From Chitinivibrionales bacterium (lineage in GTDB: Bacteria; Fibrobacterota; Chitinivibrionia; Chitinivibrionales; WJKA01): a stretch of 64,000 nt of DNA. The notes beneath the pieces are model-generated. The model worked only from the letters and a program-made list of their open reading frames with translations. It did no database searches and was not told the DNA's origin. The translations under genes and the position numbers were made by a program. Numbering within the stretch: position 1 is the first letter of the stretch; each line of letters begins with the position of its first letter. The DNA is taken from the NCBI GenBank assembly GCA_014728215.1, contig WJLZ01000215.1:62001-126000 (forward strand), read 5' to 3'. Shown here piece after piece: positions 1,742 to 21,742 of the stretch.

Positions 1742-1764
1742 TCCACTATCGGAGCATGCTATCA

Positions 1765-3408
1765 ATGCAGGAAAATCTGGAACTATTCACCGCTCAATCG
1801 GGGCAGTTGTCTGCAAAAGTCAAAACGGATGAAACGTCCTATCGTCACCTCCATTCTCTGGTAAAACCCGAGGATGAGCATGTGCATTTTGGTGATATAG
1901 AATTCTGGGGTGATATCATTATCTTTGCAGGGATCGGCCTGGGATACCATATTACCGATAAAATCGATCGTCTGCCATCATCTACAAAAATCATTATCAT
2001 CGATTATTATGAGACCTGTATCGAGCACTGCCGGAAAGCACTCTTTTCGGAACGGCAGGACAGCATTGTAACGGTATCAGAAACCTCGGAGCACGACAGC
2101 GTATCATCGCTCCAGTCTGCTTCTGTCCACTGGGCCGGCAAAAAAATTCAGGTAATCAAGCATCCGGCTTCTTATGCAGTACACCGGGAGTTCTACGAAC
2201 GTGTTCTCAGCAATGTTTTCTCTTTCGAAAAGCGCTCCTCCCCTGCTCCACAACGAAAATCAGAGGGAATGCTTTTATACGGCAAGTTTTTTCTTCAGGA
2301 AGAACTTCGCCGGGCACAGGAGCAGGTAAATGGCCCCCCCCCCGCATTGTTTCTTTACGAACAGCTCTCCGGCGGTATAACTTATGAATCGGCACTCCAG
2401 AAACAGATTCAGGAGCAGCGGCCCGATTACATTCTTTCGGTCAATATGAAAGGCTTTGACGGCAGCGGAGTTCTTCCGTGGTACGCACAAACGCTGGGTA
2501 TGCCCATTGTTGTCTGGTTTGTCGACGATCCCCACCCCATCCTTCTTCACCAGAAACAGTTTGTCAACAAATCCATGATCGCTTTCTGCTGGGAAAAAGC
2601 ATACCTTCCCTATTTGAAATCCTGCGGATTCGATTCGGTCCACTGTCTCCCTCTGGCAGCAGACCCATCACTGTTTTCGGAACATTCCCCGGCTGAGCCC
2701 AGGGTGGACCTCGGCTTTGTCGGAAGCGCCATGGGAAGGGAGTTTCTGGATACGATCAAGAGCAGGTTCATGTGGAACGATGCACTTTCACCGCTTGTCG
2801 ACATGCTCTCGAACAAACTGCTCGAACAACCGGGCCTTCCGGTGCGTCATGTTATCGATGAATTGACAGAAAATAAGGTTGTTACATTACCGTTCTCCGA
2901 TGAACGGAATCTAACCTGGCTCAGCTCCTGTATTATCCATACTGCAAGCATGAAAAAACGAAAAGCCATAATCGGTTCCCTGCAAGACAGGGGTATCGAA
3001 ACTTTCGGCGATCCCCATGGGTGGCGAGAACTTCTCGGTCCATCACTGAAAACCCATCCGGATATCGATTACACGACCCAGCTCTGCCAAACCTATCGGG
3101 AAATTGCCGTCAATACCAATATCACCAGTTGTCAGATGCCCACAGCAGTGAATCAACGGGTGTTTGACATCCCTCTGTCCGGAAGTTTTGTGCTCTCCGA
3201 CAAACAGGAACAGCTCGCCGAATTGTTCGAAATCGGCACCGAAGCGATCTGGTATGAATCTATCGAAGATTTAAAGGAAAAGATCAATCATTACAAAACC
3301 GCTTCCGACCAGCGTAAAGCGATCAGTGCAGCCGCCCGGAAAAGAATTCTTGCAGAGCACACGTATGAAAAGAGGGTCGGGGAGATTGTGAAGAGGGTTA
3401 AAAGTTGA
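1765..3408 (+). CDS. Glycosyltransferase with MAF-like N-terminus and CgeB-like C-terminus
   Basis: A cytoplasmic glycosyltransferase of about 547 residues, likely for protein or surface glycan. The first 150 residues resemble the Rossmann-like part of motility-accessory-factor proteins: GIGLGYHI, then IIIIDYYE, then QVIKHPASY. From about residue 190 it has the DUF3880/CgeB arrangement: DYILSVNMKGFDG, PIVVWFVDDPHP, AFCWEKAYLPYL and LPLAADPSLF, followed by a Glyco_trans_1_2-like domain with VFDIPLSGSFVLSDKQEQL. The ATG at 1765 is chosen over the in-frame ATG at 1756 because GGAG at 1751-1754 is 10 nt from the former and 1 nt from the latter. A run of ten C residues at 2334-2343 encodes Pro-Pro-Pro and is a possible slippage site. 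The acceptor could be flagellin or another surface protein; this is inferred from the MAF resemblance only. Confidence 0.75.
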   Translation: MQENLELFTAQSGQLSAKVKTDETSYRHLHSLVKPEDEHVHFGDIEFWGDIIIFAGIGLGYHITDKIDRLPSSTKIIIIDYYETCIEHCRKALFSERQDSIVTVSETSEHDSVSSLQSASVHWAGKKIQVIKHPASYAVHREFYERVLSNVFSFEKRSSPAPQRKSEGMLLYGKFFLQEELRRAQEQVNGPPPALFLYEQLSGGITYESALQKQIQEQRPDYILSVNMKGFDGSGVLPWYAQTLGMPIVVWFVDDPHPILLHQKQFVNKSMIAFCWEKAYLPYLKSCGFDSVHCLPLAADPSLFSEHSPAEPRVDLGFVGSAMGREFLDTIKSRFMWNDALSPLVDMLSNKLLEQPGLPVRHVIDELTENKVVTLPFSDERNLTWLSSCIIHTASMKKRKAIIGSLQDRGIETFGDPHGWRELLGPSLKTHPDIDYTTQLCQTYREIAVNTNITSCQMPTAVNQRVFDIPLSGSFVLSDKQEQLAELFEIGTEAIWYESIEDLKEKINHYKTASDQRKAISAAARKRILAEHTYEKRVGEIVKRVKS

Positions 3409-7452: not shown

Positions 7453-8583
7453 TCAATCGATAACGACCGAAAAACCAAGTCCTTTCAGAATACCGGCTTC
7501 TCTCTCCTGCCCCTTTGAGCATACGACCGAATATTTTAGACATTCATACCGGTCGCCGTAATTCGCTCTGAGTGAGTCAAAATACGAAGCCCGTTCCTCT
7601 GCTTTTTTCGAGGTAATTTCCCGCAAAGCAGCGTCATCTTCCATGATAGGATAAACGAAACGCATTGCATCAAAAACAGGATCACTGCTCTCTTTAAGAT
7701 CGATGGAGTACTGCGTTCCCTCTTTCCGGTAATCTCCAGCGTCCCATTTATTTTCTTTGAAAAGGAAAGCACATGCAGCATCATAGACCATTTTGGTTCC
7801 GCGAATCTTGCCGTCTATCGAGTATCCGGCGATATGGGGAGTAGCGATATCGGCAACAGAAAGGGTCTTCTCGCTAAGATCCGGCTCGTTTTGCCACACA
7901 TCAAGAACACATCCCCCCAGCTTTGAGCGGTTTTTTACAATCGCATCTTCATCCGAGACATTCCCCCTGCTGGTATTCACCAGGATCGCTCCCTCTTTCA
8001 TCATTGATAAAAAGCTGTCGTTTATCATATGACGAGTAGCATATTCGCCCTCATTTTCCAAAGGAACGTGAACAGTCACTATGTCGGCCTGCCCCAGGAC
8101 CTCCGGAAGCTCCCGGAAGATATCACATCCGGTCCTCTTCTTTTTTGGCGGATCGTTCAGCAGGCATTGGAACCCCAGAGTCCGGGCTCGGGCGCACACC
8201 CGGCTGCCGACATTTCCCACACCGATTATTCCAATGGTTTTCCCTTTAAAATCGCTTCCCTTGTTAAGATGGAATAATGCCGAAACCACATATTCGGCTA
8301 CAGAATCGGCATTGGATCCCGGTGCGGATGCAAATCCGATATTATCATCTCTGAGATATCCGGTATCGATATGATCGATTCCGATAGTGGTCGTGCCGAC
8401 AAATTTCACCGGTGTTTCTCTGAGAAGCTCTTCACCAACCCTGGTCACCGAGCGGACAATCAGCATCCCGACATTGTTCAGATGCTCCTTTGTTATCTCC
8501 CGCCCCGGCATACAATTCACGGTACCAAACTGAGAAAAGGCGCTTTCAGCCATGCGGATATTTGTATCTGCAAGAACAATCAT
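7453..8583 (-). CDS. pdxB: Erythronate-4-phosphate dehydrogenase
   Basis: Oxidises 4-phospho-D-erythronate to 2-oxo-3-hydroxy-4-phosphobutanoate in the DXP-independent pyridoxal 5'-phosphate pathway. At 376 residues it matches PdxB length and carries the PdxB-type C-terminal dimerisation domain, which ordinary D-2-hydroxyacid dehydrogenases lack. Motifs visible: LIVRSVTRV, FVGTTTIGIDHID, the NAD-binding GIIGVGNVGSRV, LVNTSRGNVSDEDA with the substrate-binding Arg, the Glu in VWQNEPDL, and the catalytic His in ATPHIAGYSIDGK. It diverges from the ADP-ribosylglycohydrolase gene. It is the first gene of the minus-strand stretch concerned with 2-hydroxy acids. SerA was considered but the C-terminus and HIAGYS(I/L)(D/E)GK fit PdxB. 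Confidence 0.93.
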   Translation of the reverse strand: MIVLADTNIRMAESAFSQFGTVNCMPGREITKEHLNNVGMLIVRSVTRVGEELLRETPVKFVGTTTIGIDHIDTGYLRDDNIGFASAPGSNADSVAEYVVSALFHLNKGSDFKGKTIGIIGVGNVGSRVCARARTLGFQCLLNDPPKKKRTGCDIFRELPEVLGQADIVTVHVPLENEGEYATRHMINDSFLSMMKEGAILVNTSRGNVSDEDAIVKNRSKLGGCVLDVWQNEPDLSEKTLSVADIATPHIAGYSIDGKIRGTKMVYDAACAFLFKENKWDAGDYRKEGTQYSIDLKESSDPVFDAMRFVYPIMEDDAALREITSKKAEERASYFDSLRANYGDRYECLKYSVVCSKGQEREAGILKGLGFSVVID

Positions 8584-8844: not shown

Positions 8845-9792
8845 ATGGATTTTAAAGCGAAAATCAGATCTTCAATAATTGCAGGAATAATCGGCGATGC
8901 TCTTGGTGTGCCAGTCGAATACTCTACCAGCCGAGAATTATCCCTTTGTTCGGTTAAGAACATGCTGGGATACGGCCGTTACGACCAGCCTGAAGGAACA
9001 TGGTCCGACGACACCGCTCTCTCACTTTGTACAATCGAGAGTTTATGTAAGGGGTATGATCTCGAAGATATTGCCCGGACATTCTGCCGGTGGCTTTTCA
9101 GTTCTCACCTGACCGCTAACGGCCATGTTTTTGATTGCGGGATTGTAACCTACGTGGCACTTGAAAATTTCCGATCGGGCAAAGATGCCCGCAAATCCGG
9201 TTGTGCGGGTGAAGAAGATAACGGCAATGGTTCCCTGATGCGCATATTGCCTGCGGCACTCTATTTTATGAAAAAAGACATCGATGAGTTCCTTGCGGCT
9301 GTCCACGAAATATCCGCAATTACTCATGCCCATCCCCGTTCGATGATGGCTTGCGGAATCTATTCGTTATTAATAAAAAATCTCTTTTCGGAAAACCCGA
9401 AAGAGAAAGCCTTTGCTCAAACCGTCGAAAAAGCCGGCCGCTATTATAAATCGCAAAAACCGTTCAAAAATGAGATTGAGCATTTTGACCGTATCCTTTC
9501 GGGGGATATTGTTTCCTGCAAAGCAGCGCAGATCAATACGACCGGCTATGTTGTCGATACTCTGGAGGCTGCTTTATGGTCTTTTATGAATCATACGACC
9601 ACACGGGATATTGTTCTGGCCTCTGTAAATTCAGGCCTTGACACCGACACATCCGGTATCCTGGCAGGAGGATTGGCGGGCGCCGAATACGGACTCGAGA
9701 GTATTCCCGAGGAATGGATCGATTGTTTGGCCCGAAAAGAAAAAATTGAAAAAATGATACGGCAATTTTCCACAAAAGTTGCCGCCGAATAA
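8845..9792 (+). CDS. ADP-ribosylglycohydrolase family protein (DraG-like)
   Basis: Predicted to remove ADP-ribose from modified proteins or small molecules using two Mg2+ ions. The 315-residue protein has the family's start IIAGIIGDALGVPVEY, the metal motif GTWSDDTAL at about residue 52, the inner NGSLMRI, the THAHPRS segment, and the C-terminal metal motif GLDTDTSGILAG. All the acidic metal ligands I would look for are present. No ADP-ribosyltransferase (DraT) or nitrogenase gene is nearby, so this is not obviously the nitrogenase switch. It may act on ADP-ribosylated proteins, DNA bases or ADP-ribosylarginine. The ribosome-binding site is weak. It is followed 31 bp later by a PilZ protein. 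Confidence 0.9.
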   Translation: MDFKAKIRSSIIAGIIGDALGVPVEYSTSRELSLCSVKNMLGYGRYDQPEGTWSDDTALSLCTIESLCKGYDLEDIARTFCRWLFSSHLTANGHVFDCGIVTYVALENFRSGKDARKSGCAGEEDNGNGSLMRILPAALYFMKKDIDEFLAAVHEISAITHAHPRSMMACGIYSLLIKNLFSENPKEKAFAQTVEKAGRYYKSQKPFKNEIEHFDRILSGDIVSCKAAQINTTGYVVDTLEAALWSFMNHTTTRDIVLASVNSGLDTDTSGILAGGLAGAEYGLESIPEEWIDCLARKEKIEKMIRQFSTKVAAE

Positions 9793-9823: not shown

Positions 9824-10171
9824 ATGTCATCATACCAAGGAAATGAGCGCAGGCGTGTCCAGCGAAGAAAGCTGGTAACGTTCAGTCCATCAACATTTTC
9901 GATCAACGGAAAAGAGTATCGGGCTCTCATGCGGGATGTTTCTGAGTTGGGAGCGGGATTCAAGCTTGACGGTCCCCATGAAGGTCTGGAGCTTGAACCG
10001 GGATCCGAAGTAGCCTTTGCAGTTCGTACACCCTATGGTGAATCTCAGTGCAAAGGTAAGATTGTCTGGTCCCGGGAAGAAGATGATTCGTATATATGGG
10101 GCATGCAGTTTACCGAACTTTCACAGGATGAACAGGACCCGCTCCGATCGTATATTATTTCTCCGTTTTAA
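9824..10171 (+). CDS. PilZ-domain protein (c-di-GMP receptor)
   Basis: A single PilZ domain of 115 residues, expected to bind cyclic di-GMP. Both parts of the binding signature are visible: an arginine-rich N-terminal stretch ERRRVQRRK (RxxxR) and DVSELGAGF (the D/NxSxxG motif), followed by a beta barrel ending in WGMQFTEL. TAAGGAG ends 8 nt before the ATG at 9824, so the in-frame GTG at 9818, two bases from the Shine-Dalgarno, is not used. It sits 24 bp before a PfkB-fold protein that is coupled to a glycosyltransferase, so it could modulate that pair or a surface export process. The window also encodes a GGDEF and an HD-GYP protein that could make and break the ligand. Confidence 0.9.
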   Translation: MSSYQGNERRRVQRRKLVTFSPSTFSINGKEYRALMRDVSELGAGFKLDGPHEGLELEPGSEVAFAVRTPYGESQCKGKIVWSREEDDSYIWGMQFTELSQDEQDPLRSYIISPF

Positions 10172-10195: not shown

Positions 10196-11131
10196 ATGAA
10201 AGCAATGCCGTTTCGTGACATCGACCTTCTGGTTATCGGCGAAGCATTTGTCGAATTCCGCAGCGAGCGGGAGATTATCCATAGCACCGAATTTCAGAAA
10301 GATATTGGGGGAGCCGATATTTACGTTGCCTCAACTGCAGCCAAACTCGGCTCGACCGTCTCCTTGATTTCTGCGGTTGGACGGGACCCGTTTCACAGCT
10401 TCCTGAGAGACCGCATTCTCTCCCAGGGAGTTAATATCGATCATGTCATTACCTGCAACGGTTATAACGGGATTTACTTCTGTAACTCCCGGAGCCAGGA
10501 TCAACGGGAATATCTGTACCACCGGCCGGGAAATGCCTCTGAACATCTTTCCCCGGCGATGGTCTATGACGACCTGGTGGATAATTCTAAAATTGTGTAT
10601 GCATCCAGCGAACTTCAGTCGATATCCAAAGCGGCCCGCCATACGGTATTCAAGGCATTTCACTATGCCCACCGTAACGATATCATGGTCGCCTATGATC
10701 CCAACCTTCGGCTGCAGCGATGGTCGCTCGATGATGCCAAGGAAGGGTTATGGAGTGTCCTCCCCTTAATTGATGTCATCTTTCCTTCGGCCCCCGATGA
10801 AACCAAGGCGCTTTTCGGATACGAACGTCCTCTCGATGTTATCGGGTTTCTCTGGGATCGCGGGGTTTCCATTGTCGTGGTAAAAAACGGTCCCCAGGGA
10901 TGCATGATCGGGTATGACGGTAAAGTCGAAGAGTATCCGCAGCCCGATGCGGGAAGTTCAATCAAAGACCTGACTCTTATCGGAAGCTTTTTCAACGGTG
11001 GATTTCTCCATCGTATCGCTCGAGGTGACGATCCCTTTATTGCCGCCGAATTTGCAAACAAAGTTGCCCTGGCAAAGGCGCAAAAAAGTGGAGGGATCTG
11101 CTCGGTGACGCTGCATGATGATCTCCTATGA
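10196..11131 (+). CDS. PfkB-fold carbohydrate kinase homologue lacking the catalytic Asp
   Basis: A 311-residue ribokinase/PfkB-family protein. The N-terminal substrate-binding signature is present (GGADIYVASTAAKLG near residue 39), as are the middle VAYDPNLR and VVVKNGPQGCMI. The diagnostic C-terminal signature D-T-T-G-A-G-D is changed to D258-L-T-L-I-G-S264, followed by FFNGGF. The GAGD oxyanion hole and catalytic base are therefore replaced by LIGS. By family knowledge this should abolish or strongly reduce phosphoryl transfer, so a binding or regulatory role is likely. The flanking sequence FFNGGFL is intact, which argues against a frameshift. The stop overlaps the next glycosyltransferase start (ATGA), implying translational coupling. 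The closest active relatives would be 2-keto-3-deoxygluconate or fructose kinases. Confidence 0.85.
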   Translation: MKAMPFRDIDLLVIGEAFVEFRSEREIIHSTEFQKDIGGADIYVASTAAKLGSTVSLISAVGRDPFHSFLRDRILSQGVNIDHVITCNGYNGIYFCNSRSQDQREYLYHRPGNASEHLSPAMVYDDLVDNSKIVYASSELQSISKAARHTVFKAFHYAHRNDIMVAYDPNLRLQRWSLDDAKEGLWSVLPLIDVIFPSAPDETKALFGYERPLDVIGFLWDRGVSIVVVKNGPQGCMIGYDGKVEEYPQPDAGSSIKDLTLIGSFFNGGFLHRIARGDDPFIAAEFANKVALAKAQKSGGICSVTLHDDLL

Positions 11132-12126
11132 CACGATGGATTATTACCATTCCCCCCGATGGCGCGGCACGGTCGGCCGGCCGCGAAACTGCCACAGCAT
11201 TCACAACCCTTTTAGGTGAAAACAGGGTAAAAATTTTCGATACAAAACAGTACAGTAATGCCTTCAAGGGAATTCTGAAAAATCCTGATGAAAACCTTTC
11301 GGTCGATCTTGTCAATCAGCTCCTCATCGTGCAGTGCCTCGATTTCGAAGCGACTCATCTTCTCGTGCCTGCATTCAGTCCCGTTACCCTGTTCGCTGCA
11401 ACACTTCTGAAAAAACAGGGCATAACCACGATTCACTGGTTTTATGAAGATTACCGAGTCGCCGACTACTGGAAAAACATTATCGAGGGATATGATTACT
11501 TCCTTGCCATACAAAAAGGTGAAATCAAAGACGCCTGTTCCAGGTATAATGTTCACTATGAATTCCTTCCCACTGCCGCAACAGGACCTCTGGGTGCTCC
11601 GCTCCCCCAAACCGACAAAATCCATGACATTGCCTTTGTCGGTTTTCCTTCCGAATACCGTATCCGTTTCCTGGAACACTGTGCCGAAAAAGGCATCGAC
11701 TGTGTTATCGGTGGTAAAGGATGGTCTTCCTATTCCGGCCCTCTGAGCCGATGTGTTGTGAAGGGAAGCTGGGTTGATGCAGAAGAGCACCGCAGCATTA
11801 TATGCTCTGCCAAAATCGGGCTCAATCTCTCGATATCATCGCCGGAACAAGCCCCCCTGGATGCTCATATCAGTCCGAGGGTATTTGATATAATGACAGC
11901 AGGAGCGGTTCTTCTTACCGAAGATGTTCCACTTGCTGCGGATGTTCTGGAAAAATATGATTATTATACTTTCTTTAGTTCCGATGATGCCGTTGCACGG
12001 ATACAGGAGATCACGAAAAAGGAGTGGAGCAGCTTTGACAGAATTCTCAGGAGCAACAAGCAGAAAGTAGCAGACCACGACACCTATCTCAACCGGGCTG
12101 GGCGCATAGGTGAGATAACCGAATAA
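11128..12126 (+). CDS. CgeB-like glycosyltransferase
   Basis: A 332-residue GT-B-type glycosyltransferase related to the CgeB/YkvP group. Visible family features are THLLVPAF, TTIHWFYEDYRVADYW (the equivalent of VWFVDDP in the first CgeB gene of this window), YFLAIQKGEI, DIAFVGFPSEYR, and the C-terminal sugar-nucleotide-binding part with GLNLSISS, PRVFDIMTAGAVLLTED. It starts inside the stop of the PfkB-like gene. Donor and acceptor are unknown; related genes decorate spore, flagellar or surface proteins. It lacks the MAF-like N-terminus of the protein at 1765-3408. A convergent gene follows after 54 bp with no evident terminator. Confidence 0.8.
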   Translation: MTRWIITIPPDGAARSAGRETATAFTTLLGENRVKIFDTKQYSNAFKGILKNPDENLSVDLVNQLLIVQCLDFEATHLLVPAFSPVTLFAATLLKKQGITTIHWFYEDYRVADYWKNIIEGYDYFLAIQKGEIKDACSRYNVHYEFLPTAATGPLGAPLPQTDKIHDIAFVGFPSEYRIRFLEHCAEKGIDCVIGGKGWSSYSGPLSRCVVKGSWVDAEEHRSIICSAKIGLNLSISSPEQAPLDAHISPRVFDIMTAGAVLLTEDVPLAADVLEKYDYYTFFSSDDAVARIQEITKKEWSSFDRILRSNKQKVADHDTYLNRAGRIGEITE

Positions 12127-12180: not shown

Positions 12181-13767
12181 TCAATAACTGTTTTCTTCGT
12201 AAAACTCGAAGGGATAGTTTACTTTCAGCTCTCCCAGACTATCGGGGACCGGTCGAAACCGCCAGGTGAGTATTCTGTGGGTAATGGATTTCTCAAAGCT
12301 TCCATCACCGATATCCGAACGGAGAACTTTTGCGCTTTTTACATTACCCGCTGCAGCAATCCGTATCTCAACTTCCATTCTCCCCGAAAGTTTGTTTCCT
12401 GTACGAAGGCGTTTGTTGTAGAGATATCTTAACTGTGATGAATTTTCATCGATAATCCGCTTAATTGCTGTCGGACGGCGGTAGGGATTGCCTTTGAGTG
12501 CCGTGAGCCGCTCGAGTTCCTTTATTTCTCCCTTTGGAAGTGAACCTTTTGCCATCAGCTCCCGTTTCATCTTTTCGAGTTCTCGGTGTTTTTTCTTTTC
12601 TTTCTCACCGGTCAGGTCCAGACTCCCGATTTTATTGATAAGCTTCAGCAGACTGTCATCAACCGCATAGGCGGTTATCTCTTTTTGGGACTTGCTTCCA
12701 AGAAGTTCTTTTCGTAAAGAGCTTTCTTCCACCAGATCGGCAAATTGTTCAAGCCGGTCCATAAATGCCTGGTCCTGATACTTGGCCAGTTGTTTCCGCG
12801 CCTCTTCAGCCATCTGCTGCTTGTGTTCGTAAAATTCACCAAGCATAATCATCCGCCGGTTGGCCTGTTTTGCCCAGACACGGCTCTTATCATTGCGCAT
12901 GACCCGGTAATATTCGGTAGTCGCCTCCTGGGTCTCCCCCATCTCTTCATGAGCCCGTCCCTTGAAATACCGTGCCTCCCACTCCAGTCGTGATGAAGGA
13001 TTTTTCTGAAAGAAGATCGAAAAATATCTAATTGCATTACGATAATCCATCAGCATATAAAACTGTTTTGCCTTCTCAAAATCCGAAAGATCTTTCTGGG
13101 CCTTAACCGATGTCCGCTCCTCTTCCATCGATTCGATAAAGTCCAGTAGTTTCCAGGAGAGTATTCCGGCCTCCGTTTCTGGATAGACGTTGATTATTCT
13201 TTCGTAAATATCCTTTGCGACCGAATACTCACTGAGCATCGAATGGCAAAATGCCTTATGGGCCATAACGGCCGATTTTATTTCCGGCGTAAGTCCGGGA
13301 TTTTCCATTACCTGATCATAAATCTTGATGGCTTCGGGATATTTCTTGTTTCGTTCCCAGAAATAGCCGATTTCCAGCACTTTTAATATCTGATTTTCTT
13401 CTTTTGGTTTGATTGGTTCTTTTCCCAGCACAAACCGGATACCGTTGAGCATTATTCGAATTGGGATAAGATAGAATTTTTGCTGTTTGTTTTCCTGCAG
13501 TTTTTCGGCCTGCCCACTCGAGGTAAGAGCGGCGACTTTGGCTTCGAGTTCGAAGCTCTTAATGTTTTCTTCACCATACAGTATTCTCTGCTTGATGAGT
13601 TCGTATTTGGCCACAATACCGAAAGTCTGGCCGGCTTTTTCATCAACAACAATTTTATCGAGGAGATACCGGAGTTCTTCAAAACGGATATCGACCAGGC
13701 CCATATTGAAGCCGACAGAGGCGACAATGATGAGGACCATAGAGACTATTTTCATTGCAGCACTCAT
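12181..13767 (-). CDS. TPR protein with C-terminal AgmX/TonB-like domain
   Basis: A 528-residue protein with an N-terminal hydrophobic segment (MKIVSMVLIIVASVGFNMG) that could be a signal peptide or membrane anchor. Helical tetratricopeptide-type repeats lie at about residues 140-310 (for example EIGYFWERNKKYPEAIKIYDQV and AKQFYMLMDYRNAIRYFSIF). A charged coiled-coil stretch follows at about 320-440. The C-terminal domain of about 90 residues resembles AgmX/PglI or TonB C-termini (MEVEIRIAAAGNVKSAKVLRS, then LTWRFRPV and NYPFEF). Such domains act at the cell envelope, often in gliding, adhesion or energy-transducing complexes. The ATG at 13767 follows the GGDEF gene's stop by a few bases. No ExbB/ExbD is nearby. 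The exact role is unknown. Confidence 0.7.
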   Translation of the reverse strand: MSAAMKIVSMVLIIVASVGFNMGLVDIRFEELRYLLDKIVVDEKAGQTFGIVAKYELIKQRILYGEENIKSFELEAKVAALTSSGQAEKLQENKQQKFYLIPIRIMLNGIRFVLGKEPIKPKEENQILKVLEIGYFWERNKKYPEAIKIYDQVMENPGLTPEIKSAVMAHKAFCHSMLSEYSVAKDIYERIINVYPETEAGILSWKLLDFIESMEEERTSVKAQKDLSDFEKAKQFYMLMDYRNAIRYFSIFFQKNPSSRLEWEARYFKGRAHEEMGETQEATTEYYRVMRNDKSRVWAKQANRRMIMLGEFYEHKQQMAEEARKQLAKYQDQAFMDRLEQFADLVEESSLRKELLGSKSQKEITAYAVDDSLLKLINKIGSLDLTGEKEKKKHRELEKMKRELMAKGSLPKGEIKELERLTALKGNPYRRPTAIKRIIDENSSQLRYLYNKRLRTGNKLSGRMEVEIRIAAAGNVKSAKVLRSDIGDGSFEKSITHRILTWRFRPVPDSLGELKVNYPFEFYEENSY

Positions 13768-13772
13768 AATAA

Positions 13773-15155
13773 TCAACCATTGGTAGAGATTGTGTTTCTC
13801 CCGGGCGGGGTAGCGATTCTCTGGGTCGGACTGATCGATCCTGTTCTCCGGTCGATAGCATAACAGGAGCCATCCATGTTTTTCACATGTTTTTTCACTT
13901 CAGCCGCAACCTGAATCATCTCTGCATGCCGTCTGAAAGGCCGTGTTTTGTTGGTAACAATAGCGATCGATACACTCATGAGCGGAAAACGCTGCCGCTC
14001 CCCTTTCCGGTTGATGGATTCGATAAATCCGTTCCGGGCATCGACACTGTTATAAAACTGATAGATACCACGGTCGAACGTGGTTATAAAGGCTTTGGCA
14101 AAGGCTTCCCAGTATTCATATTCGGTAACCACGACAAAATCATCGCCACCTTCATGACCGATAAAAACATTGCGCATGTCTTTCCGTTTCGAAACCGCAA
14201 CAAGACAATCACGGGTATACAAAATGGCCTCATCACCCTTTGTAAATCCATATTTGTCGTTATAAGCCTTGAAATTGTCAAGATCGCAATAGAGAACGCA
14301 TATAATCTTGCCTGCACTCAAACAATCATCGATATACTGAGCGATAGTGATATTTCCGGGCAGACCCGTGAGTGGGTTGGCGCCCTTGGCTTCATCACGC
14401 ATTCGCTGCAAAGCCACACTCATTTCGTTGAACGACGATGCCAGGTGACCGATTTCATCATCCCGCACAATCGGCACACGGATATCCAGATTACCCTGTG
14501 CAATAGAATGAGTCGCCTCATTCAGGTTCCGCAGTGGTATGAGAATCATTTTCGAAAGAAGCCAGGCAAATACAAGATGAATGGCAATAATCAGAATGGC
14601 AATCAGAACACATTGCCATAGCAGATTACCCATAGCTTCATCGATATCACGCATGGCCAGGGTTATGTATGCCACACCGATCTTATCGACTTCGTAGGTA
14701 AAGGGAATATAGAGGTCGATCGTTTTTGAGCTCTTATGGATCCGATTGTAAAAAAGTTTGTCTTCGAATCCCCGTTTGGTTATTGCCATATTGATCATTT
14801 TTAGATCGGTAACATCAGCCTCCTTTTTGCCGGTAGACTGATTATTCCGTATATCGACAATAACTTTCCCGCCCTCGGTAAAAATGGTCATATCTCTGAT
14901 TCCGAGGGCGGCGGCTTCTCTCAGAATCTTGTTCACAGTAACAGTTGTCAAATCACCATTATTACTGATTATATTATCGATACGATACTTGAGACTCGAT
15001 GCCATATGCTGGCTGCTCAAAATGGCATTGTCTCTGATAAGATCGGTCTGATTCTCATATACCATGATATTGAAAATGGTGATATTGAGAATCGTTACAA
15101 AAATGTAAAGGATTATGGTTTTATATATAATGGATTTTGTACTGATACCGAGCAT
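13773..15155 (-). CDS. Membrane GGDEF-domain protein (probable diguanylate cyclase, GGDDF variant)
   Basis: A 460-residue sensor with a transmembrane helix at about 10-32, a periplasmic domain of about 145 residues, a second helix at about 180-202, a HAMP domain to about 255, and a GGDEF domain from about 260 (PLTGLPGN). Catalytic features present are the metal Asp291 in YCDLDNFKAYNDKYG and KGDEAI. The signature at 336-340 is GGDDF rather than GGDEF or GGEEF; the third-position acid is kept and the fourth is Asp. Activity is therefore plausible but unproven. No clear upstream RxxD inhibitory site is seen. It precedes the TPR-AgmX gene by a few bases and probably shares its transcript; a 151-bp gap separates it from the NtrC-like gene upstream. 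Confidence 0.85.
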   Translation of the reverse strand: MLGISTKSIIYKTIILYIFVTILNITIFNIMVYENQTDLIRDNAILSSQHMASSLKYRIDNIISNNGDLTTVTVNKILREAAALGIRDMTIFTEGGKVIVDIRNNQSTGKKEADVTDLKMINMAITKRGFEDKLFYNRIHKSSKTIDLYIPFTYEVDKIGVAYITLAMRDIDEAMGNLLWQCVLIAILIIAIHLVFAWLLSKMILIPLRNLNEATHSIAQGNLDIRVPIVRDDEIGHLASSFNEMSVALQRMRDEAKGANPLTGLPGNITIAQYIDDCLSAGKIICVLYCDLDNFKAYNDKYGFTKGDEAILYTRDCLVAVSKRKDMRNVFIGHEGGDDFVVVTEYEYWEAFAKAFITTFDRGIYQFYNSVDARNGFIESINRKGERQRFPLMSVSIAIVTNKTRPFRRHAEMIQVAAEVKKHVKNMDGSCYAIDRRTGSISPTQRIATPPGRNTISTNG

Positions 15156-15306
15156 ATGGTCGTCCTTTTCAGGCGCAGCAAAAGATTGCTCTTCCGGTCT
15201 TCATCATGGTAAAAGACGGAAACATTTCACCTATAATGATATGGTTTATCGTAAGGTAAGTCAAGAAGATATATGAAGATATATAAGGATAATGCATTTA
15301 ACCGAG

Positions 15307-16659
15307 TCAGCCGGGAGACAGGGCATATTCTTTGAGTTTGTTCCTGAGGGTCCGAATGGAAATATCCAGCATCCGGGCCGCTTTCGTACGGTTCTGGCTG
15401 CAATGTTCGAGTGTTCTGAGTATCAATTCTTTTTCTGCCAGCGCGACAGTCAGTCCGGGTTTAATATTAAATGCATTGGACTGTTTTTCCCGCGCATTTC
15501 CTTTGAATTCCAGAAGACCGTCATCGATCAGCCCCGACCTGGTCAAAACAACGGCACGTTCGATGGTATTTTCGAGTTCACGGATATTGCCGGGCCAACC
15601 ATGGTCTCTGAGTTTCTCCAGAGCACCCTCTCCCAGGCCCTCAACACTGAATCCGTTTTCATCGTTATATTTTTTGACAAAGTGTTCGACCAGCTCAGGG
15701 ATGTCGTCTTTTCGTTCCCGCAGCGGCGGGAGCAGGATATGAAATACATTGAGCCGGTAAAAAAGATCTTCCCGGAACCGTCCCTTGGCAACATCGTTGT
15801 CCAGGTCGCGATTTGTTGTCGCAACAACCCGCACATCGACCTCTATCGACTCCTCGCCGCCGACCCGGTTGATCTCCCGCTCCTGAAGCACTCGAAGCAG
15901 TTTTGCCTGCACTGTTGCCGGCATTTCCCCGATTTCATCAAGAAGAATCGTGCCGCCCGAAGCCAGCTCAAATTTCCCGGTTTTCTGTTTCATGGCCCCG
16001 GTAAAGGCTCCCTTTTCATGGCCAAATAATTCGGATTCGATAAGCCCCTCGGGAAGTGCCGCACAATTAACTTTGATAAAAGGATTCCGACATCGATTGC
16101 TGAGACAGTGAATCGACCGGGCGACAAGCTCTTTACCCGTACCCGATTCACCGGATATCAGAACCGTCGAACGGCTCGGCGCCACCTTGTCGGTAAGTGT
16201 TCTGATCTTTTCAACAGATTCATTCCTTCCCACATACATATACTGCTTTCTGAGTGCGGTCTTGAGCTGCTTGTTCTCCCTTACCAGCAGCCGGTACTCC
16301 AGTAACCGCTTGACCGAAAATTCCAGTTCATCGATAAGATTATTCGTTTTCTGGATATAATCATTTGCGCCCTTTTTCATTGCATCAACCGCAGTATTAA
16401 CATCACCAAAGGCAGTTACCATGAGAAAAGGAATATCGCCGTTCATCTGCTTGATCTTTTCAAGAAGTTCGATACCCGACATTCCAGGCATTTTCATATC
16501 CGAGATCACAAGATCGAAAACACCACTGCGAAAACTTCTGATCGCTTCCTCACCATTTGCCGCAGGTTCGGGATCGTATCCCTGACGGCACAGTATTTCT
16601 ATAATCGATTCCCTGAATAAAGAATCGTCATCAACAACAAGAATGTGCTCTCTGGCCAT
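15307..16659 (-). CDS. Sigma-54-dependent response regulator (NtrC/FleR-like)
   Basis: A transcriptional activator of about 450 residues working with RNA polymerase-sigma54. The receiver domain (about 1-120) has the acidic pocket DDD near residue 10 and the phospho-acceptor Asp in VISDMKMPG; the usual K-P pair is K-T (YIQKTNN). The AAA+ domain shows Walker A GESGTGKE, the sigma54-contacting GAFTGA loop, Walker B GGTILLDEIGEMP and arginine-finger region FREDLFYRLNVF. The C-terminal Fis-type helix-turn-helix is NRTKAARMLDISIRTLRNKL. The ATG at 16659 has GAGGAGAG upstream and begins MAREHILVVDDD; a longer in-frame extension to 16740 would add an unrelated sequence. It follows its kinase by 16 bp. 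The arrangement resembles FleSR/FlrBC flagellar regulators. Confidence 0.93.
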   Translation of the reverse strand: MAREHILVVDDDSLFRESIIEILCRQGYDPEPAANGEEAIRSFRSGVFDLVISDMKMPGMSGIELLEKIKQMNGDIPFLMVTAFGDVNTAVDAMKKGANDYIQKTNNLIDELEFSVKRLLEYRLLVRENKQLKTALRKQYMYVGRNESVEKIRTLTDKVAPSRSTVLISGESGTGKELVARSIHCLSNRCRNPFIKVNCAALPEGLIESELFGHEKGAFTGAMKQKTGKFELASGGTILLDEIGEMPATVQAKLLRVLQEREINRVGGEESIEVDVRVVATTNRDLDNDVAKGRFREDLFYRLNVFHILLPPLRERKDDIPELVEHFVKKYNDENGFSVEGLGEGALEKLRDHGWPGNIRELENTIERAVVLTRSGLIDDGLLEFKGNAREKQSNAFNIKPGLTVALAEKELILRTLEHCSQNRTKAARMLDISIRTLRNKLKEYALSPG

Positions 16660-16675
16660 GAATTCTCTCCTCGTA

Positions 16676-17947
16676 TTACGCTTCGGCTCGTGGCAAAAAG
16701 ACTTTGAATGTGGTTCCCTTGTCCGGCGTGCTGGAAACACTGATATGCCCGGAATGGTATTCGACCATCTTCTTTACTATTGCAAGACCGAGACCTGTTC
16801 CGTTCTCCTTGGTTGTATGAAAAGGATCGAATATCTTGTTCATCCGTTCTTCTTCTATTCCCATACCGGTATCGGTGACGGCGAATGAAATGTACCCCCC
16901 CTGGCTCTCCGAAGACTGATCGACCGTAACCGTCAGGGTTCCTCCTTCCGGCATAGCCTGCACTGCATTTAAACAGAGGTTCATGACAACTTGCTGCAGT
17001 TTCTCGGGATCGGCACCAACAAGCAATTCCCCCCTGGAAGGCCACTCTTTTTGTATGGCAACGTCCTGCCCCCGGCGTTCTATTTCGATTTCCACAAAAT
17101 CAATTATTTCATTTAAAAGCTCTTTCATGTTTATCCTGCGCAATTCAGCCTTCACAGGGCGGCAGTATACCAGAAGGTTGGATACGATACGATTCAGACG
17201 GGCCAGACCCTCGATAATTTTACTCACTGTTTTTCGTTGGGGGTCCTCCGGTTTCAGATCCCGCTCAAGAAGCCCCGCCCATACCCCCATGGCGCCGAGA
17301 GGGTTCCGGATTTCGTGGGCAACGGTTGCCGCCATTTCACCAACTGCAGCCATGGTTCGGGCCTGCTGCATTTCTTCTTCCAGCGCCTTAATCCGTGAAA
17401 TATCACTGAATATCTCGACCGCACCCAGGAGTCCGGCTTTTTTCTCTTTCAGAATAGAGGTCTGATAGGAAACCGGTATGGGATTGCCGTCGTTAGCCCA
17501 GATAACCTTCTCATCCAGGGCCAATTCCTTGCCGCTCGACAAAGTATCAAGAAGCGTCGGCCCACCATCATCTCTGGTCTGGAAAAAATCCGCATAGGAT
17601 TTCCCCACGACCTCATCGGGACTATAACCGGTTATATCCGAAGCGGCCTGGTTAAAGTGGGTGATCTTGCCCATTATATCGACACCGATCACTCCATTAT
17701 TCATGCTCTCAAGGATACTGCTCAGGTAGGTCTGTATTTCTTCCTGGCGGGCCAGGCTGACCGCAAGCTCATCATTCTTCTTGTCGAGTTCAAGGTTTAC
17801 CTTGCGAAAATCTTCCTGCATGGCTGCATAAGCTGCGCTCAGTTTTTCAGCCCGCTCCTGAAATTCGGTAAATGCATTTTGAAGAATGGAAATAGTTTCG
17901 GGTGACATATCCGAAATCGAATTCCGGGGATCTCCTTGTGATGACAT
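16676..17947 (-). CDS. PAS-containing sensor histidine kinase (NtrB/FleS-like)
   Basis: A soluble kinase of 423 residues, with no membrane segment. A long N-terminal coiled coil (about 15-80) leads into a PAS domain (about 80-195). The HisKA domain follows with the phospho-acceptor His in ATVAHEIRNPLGAMG, then an ATPase domain with N-box NLCLNAVQAMPEGG, G1 box TDTGMGIEEE, FDPFHTTKENGTGLGLAIV and a normal ending. All catalytic boxes are intact. It is the obvious partner of the adjacent sigma54 regulator. The coiled coil-PAS-HisKA form without a receiver is like FleS/FlrB, which control flagellar gene classes. Its start overlaps the stop of the small coiled-coil protein gene by one base (TGATG). 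Confidence 0.93.
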   Translation of the reverse strand: MSSQGDPRNSISDMSPETISILQNAFTEFQERAEKLSAAYAAMQEDFRKVNLELDKKNDELAVSLARQEEIQTYLSSILESMNNGVIGVDIMGKITHFNQAASDITGYSPDEVVGKSYADFFQTRDDGGPTLLDTLSSGKELALDEKVIWANDGNPIPVSYQTSILKEKKAGLLGAVEIFSDISRIKALEEEMQQARTMAAVGEMAATVAHEIRNPLGAMGVWAGLLERDLKPEDPQRKTVSKIIEGLARLNRIVSNLLVYCRPVKAELRRINMKELLNEIIDFVEIEIERRGQDVAIQKEWPSRGELLVGADPEKLQQVVMNLCLNAVQAMPEGGTLTVTVDQSSESQGGYISFAVTDTGMGIEEERMNKIFDPFHTTKENGTGLGLAIVKKMVEYHSGHISVSSTPDKGTTFKVFLPRAEA

Positions 17948-18324
17948 CAGGTGTTCGAACCCTCCCTGGCAATGAGATGTTCCAGATAGGTCTTTAGCTG
18001 CTCTTCATTTTTTAAAAAGCTCTTTATGGTCTCTTCGGTCTGATCGAAAAGCGATGTAAGCTCAGCAGCTTCAGGCGCCCTGCTCAATTCAGTTTTGCGT
18101 TCCTGCCATTCTCCGATTGTGGGTTGTATCCGTTCCCGCTCCTGAGTAATGGCATCTAAAAGTTCCTGTTTTTCACCCATACCGCTCATTACCTGCGAAA
18201 GATCACCACGGGATAAAATTATCGAACTCAATGCTTTACTTACCAGGCCGTCAAGTTGACGGTACCATGTAAGCTGCCGGGCAAAGGAATCTTTCAATTC
18301 ATGTATGAGCGCGGTATTATTCAT
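17947..18324 (-). CDS. Small helical protein, possibly FlgN-like
   Basis: A 125-residue protein predicted to be almost wholly alpha-helical. It begins MNNTALIHELKDSFARQL and has heptad-like spacing through residues 30-115 with the segment GEKQELLDAITQERERI. The form (about 130 residues, long helices, E/K/Q-rich) is like the flagellar chaperone FlgN, but I cannot match conserved residues with confidence. Its stop overlaps the kinase start (TGATG), and it lies 11 bp after the TPR protein, so translation is likely coupled. ATG at 18324 is preferred because the upstream extension overlaps the TPR gene. An alternative is a kinase accessory or sensory adaptor. Confidence 0.5.
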   Translation of the reverse strand: MNNTALIHELKDSFARQLTWYRQLDGLVSKALSSIILSRGDLSQVMSGMGEKQELLDAITQERERIQPTIGEWQERKTELSRAPEAAELTSLFDQTEETIKSFLKNEEQLKTYLEHLIAREGSNT

Positions 18325-18335
18325 AATGTGTATTT

Positions 18336-20288
18336 TTATTGCAAAATCGCCTGGTATTCGTGCTCCCAGATCGTATCTTCCATTTTCCATTTTGCCTGGC
18401 GGGCCCAGTAATCATCGGGGTACTTTCCGAGAAGATTCCGGTATGTTTCAATCGCCTTTTGATAATCCCGGGTGCTTTTATATATATTGCCGATTTGAAA
18501 AAGCCCCCAGGGAGTTTCCTGAAATTTGGAATATTTCCTCGTTACCTGTTTATAATATTTCATCGCTTCTTCATATTTTTTCTGTTGATAATAATAATCG
18601 GCAATTTTGTAATAAGAATCGGGAACCCGTTCATAAACCTTTTCCGATTCACCTTCCTCGATGGCTTTCTTGAAATTGGCAACTGCTCGTGAAGCATTAT
18701 TAACTTCCAGATAGCAGGTTCCGGCTTTGTGATGGGCATAAACTTTGTCTGCGCCGTTGGCTGCAAGCACAGCCGCCTGGGAATAGGCATCGATAGCTTT
18801 TTTATGCTGTTCCAGATCGACATAGGCGTCGCCAAGATTTTCATAGGCCTTACCCGCCCACTCATGACTCCGATATTTTCTGATAAAACTGCGCAGTATT
18901 TTTTCGGCCACCGCCGACTCACCCTTTTCCAGAAAACAGAGCCCTTTCAGGAATAAACTCCGGCTTGTCAGGGGATGGGACGGATATCGATCGATAATCT
19001 GCTGGAACTGATTATCGGCATTCGTAAAGAGTCCCATTTTCAGGTAACACACCCCCACATCGTAAATACAATGAGCGGCAACATCAGCGGTAGGATAGGA
19101 GACCTGAACCTCTCTAAATTCCTTGATCGCCTTGTCAAAATTCCCCTTGTTAAATTCTCGGACCCCCTTCAGCATGGCCTGTCCGGGATCGGTCAGGGTA
19201 TCCACAATCGTCATGGACAGCAACGCATCGATACGGACTTCAATAAGGTTGTAAGGAACCTCAGGACCGATCTTTTCGATTTCATCCCGAAGATGCTCTT
19301 CACCGATACCCTTGACATCAACAACAGGAACTTCGGCGGAGGGATCTTTCATCGCCTTTTTATAGAGGGCAATAAGCGCCCGGGATTCCTCTTTGCCGGC
19401 GCCATAATCGGTACTGTTGGTATATTTGGTTAAATGTTTAATTGCTTCGGCATAATTTTTTTCTTCACCGAGAATTTTGCCCAAATAAAAATGGGCGTTA
19501 TAGCCAAGCTCAGGATAAGAAAGGGATTTCAGAAAATTGATTTTCGCCATTTGATTTTTTCCCTGGCGACGGCGAATAAGTGCGGCATAGTAATAGGCGC
19601 CTGGATGGCCCGGATGATAGCGCAGACACTGCTTTAAATGTTGAAGTGACTCGTCATATTTTTTCTCGCTGTATAAAAGGACACCCTGCTCAAATGCCTC
19701 CTCAGCTTTCTGCGAGACACCTGATGATTTTGACCGTCGCGGCGCCCGGGAACCGGAGCTGCTTTTGACAGGAGCCCCCGAAGCCTTTGATTCCGAAACC
19801 GTTTGCCCGGTTTCACCGGATGTTCCGGACATGCTCTTTCCTGTTACCCGTTGAATTAAATTATCAATCTTATTCTGCACACTGTCCCGTTCGGCAGGAT
19901 CGCACGCCTGCTGGTATAACTGCAGCTCCATAATGGCTTTCTGATACTGACGGTCGGCTTCATAAGCGTCGGCCAAAAGCTTATGGGCTTTGCCCCACCC
20001 CGGGTTATAGGCAAGGGATTTCTTTAAATTATAAATAACCAGGCGAGGTCTGTTTTGCATTTTGCGAATTTCGGCAAGATGCATATAGGCGTTGTAATTA
20101 TCGGGATAGGCAGCCAGCACTTTCCGGAACTCTTCAATAGCCCGCCCATGATCATTTTCCCTCTTGTATTTAATACCCAATCGATAGTGAATATAATCCG
20201 AAGCCTCTTCGGCAGTAACACTGCCCAAAGCGAAACACAGCAGCACGCATGCTGACAGCAGCGAGTAAAAATTTTTCCGTTTCTCCAT
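18336..20288 (-). CDS. Secreted multi-TPR protein
   Basis: A periplasmic protein of about 650 residues with a signal peptide (MEKRKNF then a hydrophobic core LLSACVLLCFALGSVTAEE). Two blocks of tetratricopeptide repeats, about residues 30-125 and 190-270, are separated by a Ser/Gly/Lys-rich low-complexity linker (about 150-185, with SGSRAPRRSK). A third block with a YbgF/BamD-like spacing (AIKEFREVQVSYPTADVAAHC, FQQIIDRYPSHPLTSRS) fills the C-terminal half. It probably acts as a scaffold for envelope complexes. A GTG at 20294, with GGAG 8 nt upstream, is an alternative start adding two residues. It lies between fapA and the FleS/FleR-like pair. Confidence 0.75.
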   Translation of the reverse strand: MEKRKNFYSLLSACVLLCFALGSVTAEEASDYIHYRLGIKYKRENDHGRAIEEFRKVLAAYPDNYNAYMHLAEIRKMQNRPRLVIYNLKKSLAYNPGWGKAHKLLADAYEADRQYQKAIMELQLYQQACDPAERDSVQNKIDNLIQRVTGKSMSGTSGETGQTVSESKASGAPVKSSSGSRAPRRSKSSGVSQKAEEAFEQGVLLYSEKKYDESLQHLKQCLRYHPGHPGAYYYAALIRRRQGKNQMAKINFLKSLSYPELGYNAHFYLGKILGEEKNYAEAIKHLTKYTNSTDYGAGKEESRALIALYKKAMKDPSAEVPVVDVKGIGEEHLRDEIEKIGPEVPYNLIEVRIDALLSMTIVDTLTDPGQAMLKGVREFNKGNFDKAIKEFREVQVSYPTADVAAHCIYDVGVCYLKMGLFTNADNQFQQIIDRYPSHPLTSRSLFLKGLCFLEKGESAVAEKILRSFIRKYRSHEWAGKAYENLGDAYVDLEQHKKAIDAYSQAAVLAANGADKVYAHHKAGTCYLEVNNASRAVANFKKAIEEGESEKVYERVPDSYYKIADYYYQQKKYEEAMKYYKQVTRKYSKFQETPWGLFQIGNIYKSTRDYQKAIETYRNLLGKYPDDYWARQAKWKMEDTIWEHEYQAILQ

Positions 20289-20377
20289 TACCACAACCAC
20301 CGCTCCTTTACCGACAAATGTCCTGATATGGACCATCTTACTTTTCGAAGAAGGTATTCTGCAATCAGATTATACCG

Positions 20378-21742
20378 CTACATAAATACTATTTTTTCAT
20401 CTTCAACTGTAATGTGTATATTAACAGCCTCTTTTTTAATCACTTTCTCGTAAGTGCCGAACTGTATTACCGTTCCCGGATAAATTTTTCTGGCTTTTAT
20501 ATACGGACGGGGGAATGCCTCAATCCGGGTATCCAGTGTATCCAGCTGATGTTGCAGCTTGTTACACTTTATCATACATTCTTTTCGCTTATTCTTCAAG
20601 GTGTTAAAGCGGTCCAGCACATTTTGCGGTAATTCACCTTCGGTATCCATGTTTTCTTTTACGAGTTTATACATCATTTCTTTGGCCAATCCGGTTTTTT
20701 CGGAAACCTGAATCAACTGGCGCAAGAGCGAATGTTTCTGTTGGATCAGTTCATAAACCCCGCCGATATGAACTACTGTTTTTGTTTCGGCCGATGCACC
20801 GATCATAACGGCTTCAATGCCAACCCCGGCTTGAATCATTCCGCCAAACAGTGTTTTTGCCGTTACAACGTTTTCTGCCCGCAGGTTCGAATGAATAGCA
20901 TCTTCGGCAATAATGATATCATTTCCCGCTTCGACGGTAAAATGTTCGATATGGCGGGTTTTTAGGGATCCATTGCATTTCAGAAGCCCTTTGTCGGAGC
21001 CGACCGCTCCACCCTTTATTTCCATGTCGCCCTTACAGGTGACAACAGTATCTTCGACACTCCGATCGATGATTATATCTCCTTCAGCTTCGACAGTAAA
21101 TCCTGCCCTCACCGTTCCCCTGATAATCAGGTCTCCGGCAAAAACAATATTGCCGGTTGAATAGTCGATATTGGAAGTAATCGTCTTTTCATTTTTCACC
21201 TCGATTACATTCCCCTTCTGCAGCGACACCGCCCCATCAATAGAGGCTACCAGAAGGTCATGATTTTCGGGTGAAAATTCGGTCCCCTTTCCGGGATGGA
21301 GATAAGCATCCTTCGGCGCAGGTGCGGGAATCGGTTTTCCGGTCACCGATCGTCCTGGTTTACCCGACTCCGGAGGTATCCGCCTGGCAAGAGGGGTACC
21401 TTTGCTGACGTTAATGATAATTTGGAGATCTTTGTGATCAACCCGACCGTTCTCCAACACTTTAGGTTTTCTCTTCGCTGTGCTTTCAAACAGTATTTCG
21501 CACCGGCCGTCTTTACCGGGCTGCGGGTGAACTCCCCTCGCAATCTCAATCTTCCTATTGCATACCTTACCGGCAACCATCTTCCGAATAATTTCCTCGT
21601 TAATGCCGTAAACAACCGAATAGTCGGCAAGACGCTTTTTTATCGCCTCCACCGAGGGATAATCATTCTCCAGAATATCAGGAACAAATACGAATGCTTG
21701 AAGGCTGTCGGAAGAATGGGAAACAGAGATCGAATTCATCAT
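20378..21742 (-). CDS. FapA family protein (DUF342)
   Basis: A 454-residue cytoplasmic protein of the FapA (flagellar assembly protein A, DUF342) family. The N-terminal segment (about 20-110) is followed by the conserved linker RIPPESGKPGRSVTGKPIP. A right-handed beta-helix domain follows, made of Gly/Asp-rich turns such as GDLIIRGTV and EGDIIIDRSVEDT (about 170-320). The end is a helical coiled coil (about 325-410) with a short beta tail. Family members influence flagellar assembly or cell polarity in some bacteria, though the biochemical function is unclear. It starts 12 bp after hldD and has AGGA before the ATG pair at 21742/21739. No structural flagellar genes are in the window. Confidence 0.85.
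   Translation of the reverse strand: MMNSISVSHSSDSLQAFVFVPDILENDYPSVEAIKKRLADYSVVYGINEEIIRKMVAGKVCNRKIEIARGVHPQPGKDGRCEILFESTAKRKPKVLENGRVDHKDLQIIINVSKGTPLARRIPPESGKPGRSVTGKPIPAPAPKDAYLHPGKGTEFSPENHDLLVASIDGAVSLQKGNVIEVKNEKTITSNIDYSTGNIVFAGDLIIRGTVRAGFTVEAEGDIIIDRSVEDTVVTCKGDMEIKGGAVGSDKGLLKCNGSLKTRHIEHFTVEAGNDIIIAEDAIHSNLRAENVVTAKTLFGGMIQAGVGIEAVMIGASAETKTVVHIGGVYELIQQKHSLLRQLIQVSEKTGLAKEMMYKLVKENMDTEGELPQNVLDRFNTLKNKRKECMIKCNKLQHQLDTLDTRIEAFPRPYIKARKIYPGTVIQFGTYEKVIKKEAVNIHITVEDEKIVFM

Follow-up and report, generated by a model that had tools for sequence, protein, structure and literature searches.

The catalytic Asp of the PfkB signature DTTGAGD has been described as conserved in all members of the family, and the V. 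cholerae fructokinase binds its divalent metal and the gamma-phosphate through N174 and R176 (PMC6240065). The solved proteins closest to the one described here are the 2-keto-3-deoxygluconate (KDG) kinases (PDB 1wye/2dcn, 2v78/2var, and 1v19/1v1b). These have the same fold (TM 0.83-0.86), give the best sequence matches, and share the D-x-N-x-R and K-x-G-x-x-G motifs. Unlike the KDG kinases, this protein has a Ser in place of the catalytic Asp, LIG in place of GAG, and variable residues in place of the KDG-contact Tyr and Arg.

The gene is located at positions 10196-11131 (forward strand) of the window, which is the whole 64,000-nucleotide stretch of DNA that was analysed. The ORF is intact and encodes 311 amino acids. 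Residues 10-301 match PF00294 (PfkB) with an E value of 3.8e-33 and 115.5 bits against a cut-off of 25.8. The AlphaFold model is confident (pLDDT 89, pTM 0.90) and shows an intact ribokinase-like fold, with KDG kinases as the nearest structures in Foldseek (TM 0.86). The score against the NCBIfam KDG kinase equivalog is 110.1 bits, well below the cut-off of 400. The N-terminal Gly-Gly motif of the PfkB superfamily is present as G38-G39 and is invariant in 30 of 30 orthologues. Promoter and terminator scans and an Rfam search at the locus returned nothing relevant.

The signature of this ORF is IKDLTLIGSFFNGGF, encoded at 10967-10987 (forward strand). It reads D258-L-T-L-I-G-S264, so that Ser264 (codon AGC, 10985-10987) stands where a kinase has its catalytic Asp, and FFNGGF follows. 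The replacement of the Asp by Ser264, the retained FFNGGF, and the intact frame had all been proposed in an earlier note on this DNA and agree with what is found. The same note considered the oxyanion glycines to be lost, which holds for one of the two. The first signature Gly is now Leu (27 of 28 main-clade orthologues), while the second, G263, is kept in 28 of 28. The first position of the signature, D258 in the window's copy, is variable among orthologues (D, N, S, H, T, Y, or A).

An orthologue of this protein, referred to here as the pseudokinase, is present in 36 of the 40 genomes of Chitinivibrionales/Chitinispirillales (Fibrobacterota), to which the window's genome belongs (hereafter the order), and in none of the 128 genomes of the phylum outside it. 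One of the four order genomes without the gene (G030) has a glycosyltransferase fragment at a contig edge, and its pseudokinase copy may be missing through an assembly gap. The gene is also carried by DYSA01000053.1, a 10,820-base contig (L113) titled Fibrobacter succinogenes. This contig matches the order genome G016, and its species label is probably wrong.

G263-S264 is invariant in all 28 full-length main-clade orthologues, and the two most divergent orthologues (G008 and G018) end the signature in G-A. The earlier note had named close homologues that keep GAGD as the sign of a recent mutant; no main-clade orthologue has G-D. All 69 alignable PfkB paralogues of the same genome set keep G-D, a count that leaves unscored 25 further fetched paralogue loci unmatched by the search profile. 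The Ser264 codons across orthologues are AGC, AGT, TCG, and TCC. That the residue is encoded by both the AGY and the TCN sets points to selection at the level of the amino acid. The dN/dS of main-clade pairs, computed only where synonymous sites are unsaturated, is 0.06-0.13. The pair G008/G018 gives 0.20, so purifying selection persists there as well. The pseudokinase is the most conserved gene of the locus: between families its identity is about 70%, compared with about 50% for PdxB, 56% for the hydrolase, about 44-45% for the glycosyltransferase, and 55% for the TPR/TonB protein. Conservation is very high along the sequence, and about 20% of positions are invariant. The loss of the Asp is thus well supported as ancient, fixed, and under purifying selection. 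With the nucleotide side retained (described below), the designation of this protein as a pseudokinase in the earlier note is also well supported.

A tree was constructed from the pseudokinases, the PfkB paralogues, and three intact kinases from plasmids. The search beyond Fibrobacterota consisted of one pattern-based scan of GTDB genomes and plasmids, so more distant relatives may occur in other lineages; the only relatives that it gave on plasmids were near 30% identical. The three plasmid kinases inspected all read GAGD, and two of them adjoin Edd-type dehydratase or KDPG-aldolase genes. The pseudokinases form a single clade (SH-aLRT 100). Its stem is long, and its neighbors are these intact, KDG-kinase-like plasmid proteins; the catalytic Asp was therefore probably lost once. 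G008 and G018 are placed within the pseudokinase family in this tree, which makes Ser the probable ancestor of their Ala. Both copies (L060 and L061) are fast-evolving, with 30-32% identity, and carry other residues in place of Ser264, E139, and Q141. An origin by duplication of a PfkB paralogue in these genomes was rejected; no paralogue found is close, the best scoring 63 bits against about 570 for pseudokinase members.

On the nucleotide side, N170, R172, E202, K230, G232, and G235 are invariant in 28 of 28 main-clade orthologues. N170 and R172 appear to correspond to N174 and R176 of the V. cholerae enzyme, because the D-x-N-x-R motif is common to both. The divergent pair G008/G018 has Arg for K230 and Ser for G235, and the conservation of K-x-G-x-x-G may be structural instead of nucleotide-related. 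On the substrate side, the positions aligned with the KDG contacts (Tyr106 and Arg108 of the S. solfataricus enzyme) vary among orthologues at 108 (Y, V, I, or F) and 110 (R, H, or L), which does not fit a KDG site. Other positions are fixed. R104 is invariant in 30 of 30 orthologues and Y106 in 29 of 30. The main clade shows no variation at E139 or Q141, and most paralogues have other residues at these four positions. E139 aligns with an Ile of the T. thermophilus KDG kinase that is presumably a substrate-pocket residue. G008/G018 have changed at E139, Q141, and S264 together, the pattern expected of a linked site.

The gene downstream (11128-12126, forward strand) encodes a CgeB-like GT-B glycosyltransferase (GT) of 332 amino acids. 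It matches PF13524 (E = 4.4e-17, 62.8 bits against a cut-off of 25), and its best structural matches are GT-B glycosyltransferases. As the earlier note had stated, its start overlaps the stop of the pseudokinase in the sequence ATGA (11128-11131, forward strand). The GT is directly downstream of the pseudokinase in 11 genomes from five families, and in most of them the two genes overlap or lie almost without a gap. In at least 15 genomes whose downstream sequence is available, the pseudokinase has no adjacent GT, and most genomes of this kind lack a GT homologue altogether. The lineages diverging before the GT-bearing clade (G008/G018, G016/G020, G013, and G006) likewise have no adjacent GT, yet the Asp is missing in them, which places the arrival of the GT after that loss. 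With G008/G018 as outgroup, the presence of the GT requires five changes on the pseudokinase tree; the tree itself does not polarise gain versus loss, and a single gain with several later losses is the simplest reading. The GT is accordingly rejected as a universal partner. The proposal that the pseudokinase regulates or feeds this enzyme is weakly supported: the conserved spacing is in its favor, and the frequent absence, later arrival, and lower conservation of the GT stand against it. A second glycosyltransferase (PF13524 and DUF3880) is encoded at 1756-3408 (forward strand), 8 kb upstream of the locus.

In two of the early-branching genomes (G013 and G008), the pseudokinase instead adjoins a protein of 403-406 amino acids with no Pfam match. 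This neighbor was considered as another GT and rejected; in a profile search it resembles UDP-HexNAc pyrophosphorylases (E = 2e-4). In G013 the pair runs into a chemotaxis operon (CheA, CheR, CheD, and a response regulator). In G008 the pseudokinase lies between LptD/pyrophosphorylase-like genes and the PriA helicase gene. Orthologues of the pyrophosphorylase-like protein, 400-430 amino acids in length (L290-L309 and L058/L060), are specific to the order, being present in 31 of its 40 genomes and in none of 21 other genomes searched; the copy of the window's genome is at G000:C110:11014-12240. Of the 20 other genomes inspected, about 14 have the gene beside flagellin or one gene away from it, and it is possible that the protein activates a sugar for flagellin glycosylation. 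A search of G010 (96% complete) found no flagellin match anywhere in a genome that keeps the pseudokinase. At G010:C47 (L298:7726-8989), TadA and the pyrophosphorylase-like gene remain, but no flagellin lies between them as it usually does; G004, a member of the same genus, retains it there. Flagellated genomes outside the order are without the pseudokinase. Because of these two patterns, a strictly flagellar role is not supported.

Upstream of the pseudokinase is an ADP-ribosylglycohydrolase gene (8845-9792, forward strand), which elsewhere is directly upstream. It precedes the pseudokinase in 12 measured loci, overlaps it by 1-4 bases in four, and is also present in G006, outside the GT clade. 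The PilZ-domain gene between the two (9824-10171, forward strand) occurs there only in the window's family (G000 and G002). By eye, its product retains RxxxR and DxSxxG, and a link to c-di-GMP is possible. A divergent PdxB-like 4-phosphoerythronate dehydrogenase gene (7453-8583, reverse strand) is a conserved neighbor, whose cluster occurs in 17 of the loci. Downstream of the GT, a convergent block for flagellar regulation (12181-21742, reverse strand) encodes a TPR/TonB protein, a HAMP-GGDEF protein, a sigma-54 response regulator, a PAS histidine kinase, an FlgN-like protein, a TPR protein, and FapA, and several of its members are kept near the pseudokinase in other genomes.

The reading favored here, to which we give an even chance, is that of an order-specific, undescribed PfkB pseudokinase acting in a glycan or motility context as a regulator or scaffold that probably binds a nucleotide, does not catalyze, and has partners that depend on the lineage. 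On the stem of the order, a KDG-kinase-like ancestor would have undergone a single loss of the catalytic base (Asp to Ser264) and of the first signature Gly. The protein, which from its signature would have no kinase activity, would then have been maintained by strong selection for a role other than catalysis. Nucleotide binding has most likely persisted, and a small ligand is probably bound through a remodelled pocket formed by the invariant R104, Y106, E139, and Q141. Ligand binding would be used to regulate or scaffold partners in cell-surface glycan or flagellar processes, a context suggested by the GT, the pyrophosphorylase-like partner near flagellin, and the flagellar-regulation block. 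Against this reading, the partners vary between lineages and no single one is universal, the K-x-G-x-x-G motif may be conserved for structure, and K230 and G235 are changed in G008/G018. A narrower version can be offered tentatively. The pseudokinase may sense a nucleotide or nucleotide-sugar and gate surface or flagellin glycosylation together with the ADP-ribosylglycohydrolase and the sugar-activating or sugar-transferring partner of each lineage, the candidates being the UDP-HexNAc-pyrophosphorylase-like protein and the CgeB-like GT.

The invariant pocket residues of the main clade, unlike those of most paralogues, and the strong purifying selection would also fit a reprogrammed active enzyme, in which nucleotide and phosphate binding is kept and another residue (for example, E139) serves as the base or another reaction is catalyzed. 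This is rather unlikely, given an Asp described as a feature of all PfkB members (PMC6240065) and given that G008/G018 lost E139 and Q141 along with S264 while their gene stayed under purifying selection. Somewhat harder to accept is a purely structural scaffold that binds no ligand and uses its PfkB fold only to contact other proteins, in the manner of moonlighting metabolic enzymes. The very high conservation along the sequence and the changing gene partners are in keeping with it, but all six nucleotide-side residues are invariant in the main clade.

A dedicated partner of the CgeB-like GT, with a sugar or nucleotide as its ligand and the regulation or feeding of that enzyme as its task, would explain the tight spacing kept across five families. 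It is improbable, as the Asp was lost before the GT arrived and many genomes keep the pseudokinase without it. That a kinase is decaying neutrally here, or that the sequence or assembly is in error, has a negligible chance of being correct and is already refuted by the low dN/dS, the two unconnected sets of serine codons, and the recurrence of the change in about 30 independently assembled genomes. These observations also led to the rejection of a recent mutation. The nucleotide-binding regulator or scaffold with changing partners is retained as the preferred reading.

An Asp loss fixed across an order under strong selection is a clean natural experiment in the conversion of a metabolic kinase into a non-catalytic protein. 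It also points to an order-specific gene that is probably important to these little-studied degraders of chitin and cellulose. One carrier genome (G022) probably belongs to the cultured Chitinispirillum alkaliphilum, in which case the pseudokinase may be directly testable. The gating of glycosylation, if true, would make this a bacterial PfkB protein that has fully lost its base and turned regulator. The open-access literature searched gave no bacterial precedent for a PfkB pseudokinase or for an ADP-ribosylglycohydrolase with PfkB.

The same neighboring gene families are found at yegU-yegV of E. coli, where an ADP-ribosylglycohydrolase gene adjoins that of a PfkB kinase. YegV, unlike the pseudokinase of the window, is presumably an ordinary PfkB kinase. 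The plant proteins FLN1 and FLN2 (fructokinase-like, associated with the plastid RNA polymerase) are PfkB homologues without reported fructokinase activity and have a non-catalytic role. They differ in being plant plastid proteins and in keeping the Asp, within GSGD, ASGD, or QSGD (PMC9698557). Assignment to the FLN-type pseudo-fructokinases is rejected, as the Asp is lost here and the clade is bacterial. Yeast Gal3p, of the galactokinase family, is a sugar-kinase relative without catalytic activity; it binds both ATP and sugar, and its signal passes through protein contact (PMC3409070). It belongs to an unrelated kinase family and is a precedent for the way in which the pseudokinase would work.
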